Of a DNA stretch of 64,000 nt, positions 5,892 through 11,803 are shown in pieces; the first letter of the stretch is position 1, and each line of letters begins with the position of its first letter. The DNA comes from Gemmatimonadota bacterium. GTDB taxonomy: Bacteria; Gemmatimonadota; Gemmatimonadetes; Gemmatimonadales; Gemmatimonadaceae. Position numbers and translations under genes: made by a program. The notes under the pieces are model-generated. The model saw only the letters and a program-made list of their open reading frames with translations. It made no database searches and was not told where the DNA came from. The DNA lies in the NCBI GenBank assembly GCA_028287305.1, contig JAQBPX010000032.1:186001-250000 (forward strand), written 5' to 3'.

Positions 5892-7528
<1,637 letters not shown>

Positions 7529-7898
7529 CCTGCACGCTGTCGCGGACGATGCCGCCAGTGGAGCCGGTCGTCGAGCCCTTGATGTATGTGCTGCCGGCCT
7601 TGATGCCGGACACCTTGCCGGTGCCGTCCACGGTCGCGACGGTCGCGTCGTTGGAGGACCAGGTGGGGTTGGCAACGACCGCGAGCAGTGCGCCGCTCGC
7701 GCTGTAGCTGCGGAGCGTGACGGTGGTGGTGCTGCCCACGTTGATGTTGGTGAGCACGGCGCTGACCTTGACGCTGGCGATGCCGTTGCCGGTGGCGTCG
7801 GTGGTGGCGCTGCTGCTGCTGCCGCACGCGGCCGAGGCCAGGAGGGAGGTGGCGGCCGCGAGGGCGAGGGTGGTGCGAGAGGGAGTGCGCATGTCCCC

Positions 7899-7956: not shown

Positions 7957-8030
<74 letters not shown>

Positions 8031-8051
8031 TGGATGGAAATGTGTGAAGTG

Positions 8052-8088
8052 AACAATCGGCCGGTCCGAAAGGGCCGGCTGAATTGTT
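8052..8088 (+). terminator. Long GNRA-capped hairpin between the two tRNA-Met genes
   Basis: AACAAT (8052-8057) pairs with ATTGTT (8083-8088). Inside it an 8-bp GC-rich stem (8060-8067 with 8072-8079) closes a GAAA tetraloop. No clean T tract follows, so it may be a weak terminator or an RNA-processing signal in a shared tRNA transcript. Confidence 0.5.
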
Positions 8089-8102
8089 TGTGAGGGGAGT
8101 GT

Positions 8103-8176
8103 GGCTGGGTAGCTCAGCCGGTTAGAGCACGGCACTCATAATGCCGGGGTCGCGGGTTCGAGTCCCGCCCCAGCTA
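8103..8176 (+). tRNA. Elongator tRNA-Met (CAT)
   Basis: The 74-nt cloverleaf has anticodon CAT at 8137-8139. The acceptor is GGCTGGG paired with CCCAGCT, which includes a G1-T72 wobble. The D loop has AGCTCAGCCGGTTAGAGC and the T arm is GCGGG/CCCGC around TTCGAGT. The body resembles elongator tRNA-Met rather than tRNA-Ile2, although the two cannot be fully separated without knowing whether C34 is lysidinylated. CCA is not encoded. Confidence 0.93.
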
Positions 8177-8189
8177 TAAAGTTCACGAG

Positions 8190-8408: not shown

Positions 8409-9446
8409 ATGATCATGGTCGAATCACGCTTTCGCGTTGCCAACGGGATGGCGGACGACGTGCGGAACGCCTTCCTGCACCGCCCGGGGCTGGTCGATGA
8501 CGTCACCGGTTTTCTCGGCATGGAGGTGTACGTCGCCAGCGACGACCACTGCGTCTTTCACCTCGTCACGCGATGGACGGACGCCGCGGCGTACACCGCC
8601 TGGCACCGGAGCGATGCGCATCACAACTCGCACGCCTTCATTCCGCGCGGCCTCAAGCTCGAGGCCGCATTCACGCGGCTGACGACGCTCGAACGCCTCG
8701 CGCCGAAGGATCACACCCCGACCGTGGCCGAGGCGCTCGCGGATGCAGCCCCTGCGGTCGCCACATGGCTCGACCAGGGGTACGGCATGTACGTCTTGCT
8801 GGTGGGCGCGGACGGCCAGGCGATCGCCCTCAACCGCGCCCTGGCCGAGCGCCTCGAGGTACCATTCCCTGCTGGCTCACCCGCGCTCACGACGCTCCTC
8901 GCCAACGACGAGGCGACCGAGCTGTCCGACCGGATCGCCCGGCTTCGCGGCGCCGGCACCCGGGGCATCACTGAGGCGTTCCTGCTCAACCCGGTCAACG
9001 CATCGGGATCGCTATTCACGCTGCACTGCCGGATGGACGTCCAGCCCACGTACGCCGTGATCCTTGCCGAGGGTGCCGACGGTGCGGACGATCGCCTGCG
9101 CGACGAGCTCCTGACAACGAACAACCTGCTCGCGGTATTGGCCCGCGAGCGGGAGGCAGCGCGGCAAGCGCTCGAGGGCGCGCGGAGCGAACTGGCCCGC
9201 GTGAACGCGGAGCAGGCCGCCACGCTCGAGGCCCTCCATGCCTCGTACTGGCACATCCAGCGCATCCAGGAGTTGCTGCCCATCTGCATGGACTGCGGCG
9301 AGGTGAAGTCCGCGGACGGCGGCTGGCAGCCCGTGCGCGAGTTCATGACGGCGAACGCCATGACCCCGTTTCTCAGTCACGGCTACTGTCCTGCCTGCGC
9401 GGCACGGCAGCTGGCCGAGGTTGCACGAGAGGACGCGGTGACATGA
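8409..9446 (+). CDS. Heme-oxygenase-like (ABM/IsdG-fold) + PAS-like + zinc-ribbon sensor protein
   Basis: 345 residues, soluble, with an unusual domain order. Residues 1-97 match the antibiotic-biosynthesis-monooxygenase/IsdG fold (GFLGMEVYVASDD, LVTRWTDAAAYTAWHRSD). Trp65 and His75 have the ten-residue spacing of the Trp-His pair that holds heme in IsdG enzymes, while the IsdG Asn aligns with Ser6. A PAS-like stretch follows (about 115-222). Next is a signalling coiled coil (about 228-285) and a C-terminal four-cysteine module (C293, C296, C327, C330) in the LPICMDCGEVK...SHGYCPAC context seen in bacterial sensory proteins. There is no output domain. The stop overlaps the next ATG (ATGA), so it is coupled to the B12-binding gene. 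Heme binding is inference. Confidence 0.75.
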   Translation: MIMVESRFRVANGMADDVRNAFLHRPGLVDDVTGFLGMEVYVASDDHCVFHLVTRWTDAAAYTAWHRSDAHHNSHAFIPRGLKLEAAFTRLTTLERLAPKDHTPTVAEALADAAPAVATWLDQGYGMYVLLVGADGQAIALNRALAERLEVPFPAGSPALTTLLANDEATELSDRIARLRGAGTRGITEAFLLNPVNASGSLFTLHCRMDVQPTYAVILAEGADGADDRLRDELLTTNNLLAVLAREREAARQALEGARSELARVNAEQAATLEALHASYWHIQRIQELLPICMDCGEVKSADGGWQPVREFMTANAMTPFLSHGYCPACAARQLAEVAREDAVT

Positions 9447-10531
9447 GCGCGCCCGAGCGAGGGCGCGTCGCGCTGCGAGAGCGTCGCGCCGGCGCACGAC
9501 AGCTGCGGGCTCGGAAGCTGCAGATCGCCACGCGCGCGAATGACGCCTTCCTCGCACGTCACCAGGACTGGTCCGACCGGTACGGCGACGTCGCGAGGAC
9601 GCGTGGCACGGAGGACGCCGCGTACCACCTGGAGTTCCTGGCGGGCGCCCTGGAGACAGGAGAGGCCGCCGTGTTCGTCGACTACGTCGCATGGTTGCTG
9701 GAGGTGCTGGGGTCGCGCGGCATCCGCTCCGAATCCGTGGTCGAGAGCCTGGAGCTGGTGGGTCATGGGGCGCTCCTGCTGCTCGACGGCGATGCGCGCG
9801 AGTCGCTCCAGGAGATGCTCGACGCAGGTGTCGCGCGTGCGCGGGCGGGCACCACGCCCGCCGCTGGCGCCGACCAGCCGACGGACGAATCGCCGCTGGC
9901 GAACGCCTCGCGAGCATTCCTGCACGCACTGCTGCAGGGAGAGCGGCAGGGCGCACTCGGCATCGCGCGCGAGGCGTTGCGCGTCGCCGCGCATCCGACT
10001 GATGTGTACGTGGAGCTCTTCCAGCGCTCACTCACCGAGATCGGGCGGCAATGGCAACTCAACCGCATCACGGTGGCGCAGGAGCACATGGCCACCGCCA
10101 TCGTGCAGTTCGTGCTCGCGCAGCTCTATTCGGCGCTCGACCGCTCCGCCCCGACTCGCGGCAGCGCGCTCATCACCGGCGTCGAGGGCGAACTTCACCA
10201 GGTCGGCGCCAACCTCGTCGCGGACGCGCTGGAGCTCGACGGCTGGCGCGTCCACTTCCTCGGCACCAACGTGCCGCATGACGGCATCGTCGAGGCGGCG
10301 GCTGCGATGAAGGCGGACGTCGTGGGCATTTCGGCCACCATGATCTTCAACCTCGATCCCGTCGCGCGGCTCGTCGAGAGCGTCCGCGGGATGAAGGGGG
10401 CGGCGCCGCACATCCTCGTCGGCGGCGGGGCATTTCGCACTGCGCCGAACCTGTGGAAGGACGTGGGCGCCGACGGATCGGCGAGCGACGTGCGCGGTGC
10501 GTGCGCGATCGCACGAGCGGTGCAGCGGTGA
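9443..10531 (+). CDS. CarH-like cobalamin-binding sensor lacking a DNA-binding domain
   Basis: 362 residues, soluble. Residues 1-130 form a helical domain of unknown type (FVDYVAWLLEVLGSRGI). Residues about 150-235 match the four-helix cap found before B12-binding domains in CarH/LitR and MetH, with IGRQWQLNRITVAQEHMAT giving the cap Trp204 and the Glu214-His215 pair. Residues 240-362 are the Rossmann B12-binding domain with GELHQVG (His252 as probable lower cobalt ligand), VHFLGTNVPHDGIV, ISATM and ILVGGGAF. There is no MerR-type HTH. In CarH the cap Trp is followed by His; here it is Gln205. The gene is ATGA-coupled to the upstream gene and GTGA-coupled to the kinase, so the probable output is that kinase. 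Confidence 0.8.
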   Translation: MSAPERGRVALRERRAGARQLRARKLQIATRANDAFLARHQDWSDRYGDVARTRGTEDAAYHLEFLAGALETGEAAVFVDYVAWLLEVLGSRGIRSESVVESLELVGHGALLLLDGDARESLQEMLDAGVARARAGTTPAAGADQPTDESPLANASRAFLHALLQGERQGALGIAREALRVAAHPTDVYVELFQRSLTEIGRQWQLNRITVAQEHMATAIVQFVLAQLYSALDRSAPTRGSALITGVEGELHQVGANLVADALELDGWRVHFLGTNVPHDGIVEAAAAMKADVVGISATMIFNLDPVARLVESVRGMKGAAPHILVGGGAFRTAPNLWKDVGADGSASDVRGACAIARAVQR

Positions 10532-11355
10532 CGCCGTCGACGACGCTCGCCGTCGACGCGATGGACGATGACAGCGTCAAGCACCTCTTCGAGCAGCTCA
10601 CGGCGACGAACAACGAGCTGGCCGTGCTCCACCGCGACCTCACCCGGAAGACGCGTGACCTGGAAGAGGCGAGGACGCTGAACAACCAGTTCCTCGGCAT
10701 GGCGGCGCACGACCTGCGCAATCCACTGCACGTGATCGGCGGCATGAGCAGGGTGCTCCTGCGCAGCAGGAACGTGAGCGAGATGGAGCGCAAGCTGATC
10801 CAGAGCATCTTCGACTCCAGCGACTTCATGCGGCGGCTGGTCGATGACCTGCTCCAGGTCAGCGAGCTGGATGCCGGCATGCTGCGACTGCACCGCGAAC
10901 CCTGCGCCCTCCGGGAGCTGGTGGCGGAGCGAGTCGAGTTGCAGCGACCGATGGCCGAGGGCAAGGGCATCGCCATCACCCTGCGGTGCCTCGAACCGCT
11001 CCCCCCCGTCAACGGCGACCGCATGCGGCTGGCGCAGGTGCTCGACAACCTGCTGAGCAACGCCATCAAGTATTCCCGTCCGGGCACGCGTGTCACCGTG
11101 ACGACGCGCGCCACTCGCGGCGGGACCCGTGTCTCGGTCGGCGACGAGGGACAGGGCATCGCGCGGGATGAGCTGGGCAAGCTGTTCCTGCCCTTCGGCG
11201 TCACGAGCAGCCACGCGACCGGTGGCGAGAAGAGCACGGGGCTGGGCTTGCTCATCGTGAAGCGGATCGCCGAGGCACACGGTGGATCCGTGCTCGTGCG
11301 CTCGCGTGTGGGCGTCGGCACCACATTCCACCTCCTCCTCCCGGCAGGCGAATAG
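10528..11355 (+). CDS. Soluble histidine kinase coupled to the B12/ABM sensors
   Basis: 275-residue kinase with no membrane segment. An N-terminal coiled coil (about 16-52) is followed by the DHp helix with His61 (GMAAHDLRNPLHVI) and the HATPase domain with the N box [12 protein letters not shown]1 GDEGQGIA and G2 STGLGLLIVKRI. There is no PAS, GAF or receiver domain, so sensing must come from partners. The coiled coil LTATNNELAVLHRD resembles LTTNNLLAVLARE in the ABM protein two genes upstream. I chose the GTG that overlaps the preceding stop (GTGA) rather than a longer frame reaching into the B12 gene. No response regulator is adjacent. Confidence 0.88.
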   Translation: MTPSTTLAVDAMDDDSVKHLFEQLTATNNELAVLHRDLTRKTRDLEEARTLNNQFLGMAAHDLRNPLHVIGGMSRVLLRSRNVSEMERKLIQSIFDSSDFMRRLVDDLLQVSELDAGMLRLHREPCALRELVAERVELQRPMAEGKGIAITLRCLEPLPPVNGDRMRLAQVLDNLLSNAIKYSRPGTRVTVTTRATRGGTRVSVGDEGQGIARDELGKLFLPFGVTSSHATGGEKSTGLGLLIVKRIAEAHGGSVLVRSRVGVGTTFHLLLPAGE

Positions 11356-11422: not shown

Positions 11423-11803
11423 ATGAAACCTTCTTCCTGGCCCAGCCGGATCCTCTTCGGCATCGTAGTCCTCTTCCTGGCCTTCGACTCCATCTCCCAC
11501 ATCATGGCCCCAGCGCCGGTCGTGGAAGCGTTCACGCGGCTCGGCATCCCCATGTCGCGCGCGATCGCGCTCGGCGTGATCCAGCTGGCCTGCCTGGCGG
11601 TCTACGCGGTGCCGCAGACCGCCATCCTCGGCGCGATCCTGCTCACCGGGTGGCTCGGCGGCGCCACGGCGATCCACATGCGGGCGGGAAGCACCCCCTT
11701 CGAGATGATCTTCCCCGAGATCATTGGCGTGATGATGTGGGGAGCGCTCTACCTGCGGGACGCTCGCCTCCGCGCCCTCATCCCCGTGCAACGCGCGCCG
11801 TAG
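11423..11803 (+). CDS. DoxX-like integral membrane protein
   Basis: 126-residue protein of four predicted membrane helices: ILFGIVVLFLAFDSISHI, AIALGVIQLACLAVYAVP, AILGAILLTGWLGGAT, and MIFPEIIGVMMWGALYL. The loop AIHMRAGS is typical of the DoxX_2-like family. The biochemical role of this subfamily is not established. I chose the ATG giving MKPSSWPSRILFG because the upstream in-frame stretch is the end of the kinase gene and a non-coding gap. A MocR regulator follows 44 nt downstream and may control it. Confidence 0.8.
   Translation: MKPSSWPSRILFGIVVLFLAFDSISHIMAPAPVVEAFTRLGIPMSRAIALGVIQLACLAVYAVPQTAILGAILLTGWLGGATAIHMRAGSTPFEMIFPEIIGVMMWGALYLRDARLRALIPVQRAP

Follow-up and report, generated by a model that had tools for sequence, protein, structure and literature searches.

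In a window of 64,000 nucleotides from a Gemmatimonadota contig, three overlapping genes end in a histidine kinase that carries no sensor domain of its own, which raises the question of what this kinase responds to and through which proteins. The ORFs of gene 1 (8409-9446), gene 2 (9443-10531) and gene 3 (10528-11355) lie on the forward (+) strand, as do all their features given below. A first-pass annotation had described them as overlapping stop-to-start and as one co-translated signalling unit; both four-base overlaps, ATGA at 9443..9446 and GTGA at 10528..10531, are confirmed in the DNA, and we uphold the unit. Gene 3 also has an alternative in-frame start (ATG 10561). An ABM protein, a B12 protein and a kinase co-occur in other genomes as well, and because this recurs in several phyla, the association is not due to chance. 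The reading that we favour, and that we hold to be fairly probable, is that one light sensor containing bilin and B12 drives the kinase and that the ABM makes or loads the bilin.

No response regulator adjoins the operon, and a promoter scan gave nothing useful. Two tRNA-Met genes lie just upstream (7957-8177) and mark a possible insertion spot; in most of the genomes sampled from this family, the cassette was not found. A DoxX-like small protein gene (11423-11803) starts about 70 bases after the kinase, and a DoxX-like ORF is also found near the cassette in L036.

Domain composition of the operon

Gene 1 has the domain order ABM–PAS–long helix–CxxC…CxxC. Its IsdG/MhuD/HmuQ-like ABM domain (residues 1-95, 8409..8693) was identified by Pfam PF03992 (score 53.7 bits, cut-off 23.1), a profile search and alignments; it carries Ser6, Trp65 and His75 together with the motif SHxxIPxGLKL. 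The Trp65/His75 pair, which the earlier annotation had already pointed out, aligns with IsdG Trp67/His77. The predicted PAS domain (residues ~124-222, 8778..9074) was recognized in the AlphaFold2 (AF2) model and by Foldseek matches to the PAS domains of FixL/DosH; this stretch has no Pfam match in the window, and its homologue at L050 scores above Pfam PAS cut-offs. It is followed by a long signalling helix, predicted by AF2 (residues 225-287, 9081..9269), and a small CxxC...CxxC domain (residues 288-345, 9270..9443) with the sequence CMDCGEVK...SHGYCPAC. This domain, conserved across homologues in four phyla and without a matching Pfam family, is probably a metal or redox site. We disregarded a phmmer match between gene 1 and pantothenate kinase, as it begins within a His-tag-like stretch.

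Gene 2 had been read as a CarH-like B12 protein. The B12 part of this claim stands: both the four-helix cap with W204-x9-E214-H215 (residues 153-229, 9899..10129, PF02607) and the Rossmann B12-binding domain with the lower ligand E250-x-H252 (residues 240-362, 10160..10528, PF02310 and Foldseek) score above cut-off. The plain CarH-like reading is ruled out, because a photocobilin/phycobiliprotein-type globin precedes the B12 module (residues 11-135, 9473..9847, assigned from a PDB profile and invariant residues). Only B12-binding domains pass Pfam cut-offs in gene 2, with no MerR-type DNA-binding domain among them, and its score against NCBIfam CarH is 71 bits, compared with a cut-off of 400. 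The first pass had thus overlooked this globin and, in gene 1, the PAS domain, the 63-residue helix and the CxxC...CxxC tail.

Gene 3 (10528..11355, Pfam) encodes a soluble kinase with the features of a two-component histidine kinase: a HisKA domain (10681-10878) with the phospho-acceptor His61 (codon 10708-10710) and a HATPase_c domain (11014-11346), both above the Pfam cut-off. Since no Pfam sensor domain was found, the description as a kinase core without its own sensor is borne out. A helix with the sequence motif TNNELAVLHR (10594-10674) precedes HisKA; the corresponding motif of gene 1, TTNNxLAVLxR, recurs here, with 13 of 27 residues identical to residues 23-49 of gene 3. Because the motif is common to both proteins, gene 3 may represent a PAS-HK with its PAS partner encoded separately, in gene 1. 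Its closest relatives among the B12 loci examined adjoin B12 genes, as do two of the six best relatives from Gemmatimonadota.

Occurrence and possible role of the ABM partner

Five globin-B12 proteins were used as queries across GTDB, which yielded 59 loci. At 29 of the 33 loci with a fused globin-B12 gene, an ABM is present in or beside that gene, alone or fused to a neighbour, and these cassettes occur in Gemmatimonadota, Acidobacteriota, Myxococcota, Nitrospirota and Pseudomonadota. No ABM was found at loci whose B12 gene has no globin (0/14) or at Myxococcaceae-type loci in which globin and B12 are encoded separately (0/6). At most loci, the ABM stands alone as a protein of ~100 residues, located just upstream of the globin-B12 gene in Pseudomonadota and Nitrospirota and just downstream in Gemmatimonadota; in Acidobacteriota, Myxococcota and the window it is fused in front of PAS-CxxC. 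The globin-B12 protein tree has two deep clades, and as the ABM occurs in both at different positions, the association has been kept through rearrangement. Four tandem genes for ABM, globin, B12 and HK are found in another family of the same class (L137, L138, L152), ABM with globin-B12 and PAS-HK at L065, L073 and L077, and the fused ABM form with globin and B12 in separate frames in a MAG named Chthoniobacterales (L059). The outputs after PAS differ (HK, GGDEF or hybrid HK), and CxxC is also an output form. No globin was detectable at the ABM loci L139, L153 and L155, and at some globin loci both the ABM and PF01126 are missing (G230, G065, G303, G325, G083). As side observations, in an Acidobacteria MAG the globin-B12 protein carries a response-regulator receiver domain in the same chain (L055:1834-3252), and three MAGs titled Bordetella parapertussis or Klebsiella pneumoniae (L078, L079, L083) group with betaproteobacterial cassettes, so that their names look wrong.

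Among 298 Gemmatimonadota genomes, the ABM subfamily has 10 strong matches (E<=5e-33), all within ~1 kb of a globin or B12 gene; the next-best ABMs score ~1e-18, about 15 orders of magnitude weaker. The catalytic Asn is retained in the five unlinked Gemmatimonadota ABMs that were read, and the cassette subfamily has Ser. In IsdG, the triad is Asn/Trp/His, including Asn7 (PMC6018153); our alignments place Ser6 of gene 1 at Asn7, which leaves the triad incomplete. The heme-ruffling Trp65 position is Trp in the fused and proteobacterial ABMs and Tyr in the stand-alone Gemmatimonadota forms (L050, L052, L058, L137-L140). In a PDB profile search, the matches of the ABM were led by heme-degrading proteins (TT1380, MhuD, HmoB, IsdG/I), and the NCBIfam HmuQ model was matched by 23/23 subfamily members, with the window ABM below its cut-off. 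Judged by its sequence, the ABM appears to be a cassette-specific branch close to the IsdG/MhuD-like proteins. Because the catalytic Asn is replaced by Ser, the ABM may no longer cleave heme or may do so differently, and with this Asn missing we do not claim a full IsdG-type heme oxygenase.

The genome of the window has neither a canonical heme oxygenase (PF01126) nor a PHY domain, and PF01126 occurs in only 4 of 36 ABM-cassette genomes; the cassette-specific IsdG-like protein, kept close to the globin, is a candidate for the bilin step that is missing from the other 32. This absence alone proves little, since the Gemmatimonadota baseline for the canonical enzyme is only 30/298 (10%). Compared with a globin-bearing set of genomes (21/36), the difference is significant when all genomes are counted (p ~5e-5) and is not significant once Myxococcaceae are removed from that set (p ~0.13), and in genus g63, a small sample, one weak heme oxygenase among six ABM-positive genomes compares with four in four ABM-negative ones (p ~0.05), one of which adjoins a phytochrome gene. 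The presence of heme oxygenase in ABM-free genomes is partly phylogenetic. We therefore dropped the exclusion pattern as proof of the ABM role, given the loss of significance and the small g63 sample; that it fits replacement of the canonical enzyme by the ABM is suggestive only.

Physical linkage is more direct. ORFs of ~420-500 aa in which a canonical heme oxygenase is followed by this kind of globin were found in seven loci (L151:5506-6777, L157:4808-6121, L158:4258-5571, L159:142-1455, L160:3937-5436, L162:580-1851, L097:2153-3550), with E-values from 1e-4 to 6e-7 against a home-made globin profile. A B12 gene lies directly downstream of this ORF in L151 and divergently beside it in L159, and B12 and kinase genes are in the same run in L097. 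The L151 B12-binding protein (6771-7556) opens with a CxxC...CxxC motif resembling the gene 1 tail. At the level of predicted proteins, a heme-opening type is thus often physically tied to the globin; one set of loci has the canonical form, the other an IsdG-like one. This leads us to favour production or loading of bilin by the ABM, a role for which the support is moderate. A more specific version, in which the canonical enzyme gives way to a Ser-type IsdG-like heme oxygenase that serves solely to make the photoreceptor chromophore, with a product that may not be biliverdin (staphylobilin- or mycobilin-like), we regard as tentative.

A less likely alternative, along the lines of the first pass, is that the ABM binds heme without degrading it and acts as a sensor or redox domain, so that heme, oxygen or redox state would be combined with the B12/bilin light signal. 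The change of Asn7 to Ser in a heme-degrading fold that keeps His75 would suit such a function, as would the serial fusion with PAS and CxxC domains, which resembles a sensory protein, and a structure of IsdG-N7A with hemin bound exists (2zdo). However, the ABM is mostly a separate protein outside the signalling protein, its Trp65 has become Tyr in the stand-alone Gemmatimonadota forms, and canonical heme oxygenase is found fused to the same globin. Because heme-degrading relatives lead the matches and the ABM tracks globin rather than B12, a role in making or handling bilin would suit the ABM better than one as a heme sensor in its own right, with the missing Asn as a reservation.

Predicted chromophores and signal path

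In a PDB search, the photocobilins 8J2W/8J2X came out nearest to gene 2, and the bilin-binding globin at their C-terminus aligned with its N-terminus. When 20 N-terminal domains of this kind were combined into a profile, it matched SasPcob (8e-8) and AbPcob (4e-6), followed by phycocyanins and allophycocyanins from 2.7e-5. The AF2 model of gene 2 (pLDDT 93.6, pTM 0.89) likewise has SasPcob as its nearest PDB fold in Foldseek, with CarH among the best matches; Foldseek aligns the B12 part only, because the domain order differs from that of SasPcob. With SasPcob residues mapped at a constant offset of +5 (chain Trp56 = Trp61, Glu66-His67 = Glu71-His72, His103 = His108), W204 corresponds to Trp61, E214-H215 to Glu71-His72 and H252 to His108 in the B12 site, and D58 and W84 to Asp270 and Trp296 in the biliverdin site. 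All six residues are invariant in 34 aligned proteins, and H62, Y81 and R92 of the globin are invariant in the family alignment along with D58 and W84; SasPcob His137 is not kept. Gene 2 hence looks like a photocobilin, a type of photoreceptor with B12 and biliverdin as its chromophores, except that the two parts come in the opposite order; the main chromophore residues are retained. The support is strong for the B12 part and good for the bilin part. The first pass had two tetrapyrrole-type folds, one each from genes 1 and 2, feeding one kinase. Since gene 2 itself holds the second chromophore-type domain, we place a two-pigment sensor entirely within it.

We consider it improbable that the globin no longer binds bilin and only shapes the B12 site, which would make gene 2 a B12-only light sensor and have the ABM act on something unrelated. 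The genome has no canonical heme oxygenase, and AbPcob binds biliverdin poorly, but AbPcob has His at its Asp270 position (PMC10979010), a position that together with Trp296 is unchanged throughout the gene 2 family. Nor is the lack of Cys in the window globin decisive, as SasPcob needs no linking Cys to bind biliverdin (PMC10979010). That gene 2 senses no light at all, its B12 domain reporting cobalamin or redox status and its globin being a structural relic, is still less probable: some B12-type domains do bind heme instead, and the AppA SCHIC family matches weakly, but light-dependent CarH-like domains have W-x9-EH and E/DxH-type motifs, both of which gene 2 contains, and W204, E214, H215 and H252 are invariant across the aligned family.

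On the favoured reading of a bilin and B12 light sensor, genes 1-3 would form one light-responsive signalling complex. In gene 2, adenosylcobalamin would occupy the CarH-type site, and the adjacent phycobiliprotein-type globin would take up a linear tetrapyrrole (biliverdin or a related bilin), which the gene 1 ABM would either make from heme or hold and load at the sensor. With both B12 and bilin bound, green light via the former and red light via the latter might each break the Co-C bond and change the assembly of gene 2. The signal would then travel through gene 1, by way of its helix/PAS/CxxC scaffold, and reach the kinase via the corresponding helix in gene 3; the kinase would in turn phosphorylate an unlinked response regulator. 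The domains, motifs, conserved linkage and re-fusions are observed, and we infer the chromophore identity, the light response, the ABM chemistry, the protein contacts and the direction of kinase control. The fate of bilins from bacterial heme catabolism is largely unknown, according to a review (PMC6018153). If the Ser-type ABM indeed made the chromophore and its product were a bilin other than biliverdin, photoreceptors would gain a new pigment and IsdG-family bilins a function. The exchangeable outputs (kinase, diguanylate cyclase) are of optogenetic interest as well.

Comparison with known systems

The arrangement had initially been taken as undescribed, which we narrow to the constant ABM partner, the part that we did not find described; the rest is close to photoglobin/photocobilin systems. 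The Schneider 2022 photoglobin study reportedly deals with coupling of photoglobins to B12 and signalling domains. In the literature searched, the scope of which ended short of that paper, no report was found of an ABM protein linked to such photosensors. Coupling of photoglobins and photocobilins with B12 and signalling domains is already known (PMC10979010, PMC10151467). In the available portion of Rockwell 2023 (PMC10151467), photoglobin/BBAG-2 clusters contain a canonical heme oxygenase, plus a pre-PcyA reductase in BBAG-2, and no ABM/IsdG-type partner is mentioned there, whereas the window has an ABM.

The recently described photocobilins, which use biliverdin (SasPcob and AbDPcob; PDB 8J2W, 8J2X, 8J2Y; PMC10979010), likewise combine a B12 domain and a phycobiliprotein-like globin in one chain and share the AdoCbl residues and the key biliverdin residues with gene 2. 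In both characterised proteins, however, B12 is N-terminal and the globin C-terminal, whereas the globin comes first in the window and its homologues, and the window system has separate PAS/CxxC and kinase proteins and a constant ABM partner. CarH/LitR have the same W-x9-EH cap, E/DxH lower ligand and CarH-type fold as gene 2, which lacks their DNA-binding domain and has a kinase as output. The cassette ABM shares with IsdG/MhuD/HmuQ the fold and the position of the His ligand, and a Trp in its fused and proteobacterial forms; it differs from them in the Ser that replaces the catalytic Asn, the C-terminal IPxGLKL motif and the linkage to a photosensor.
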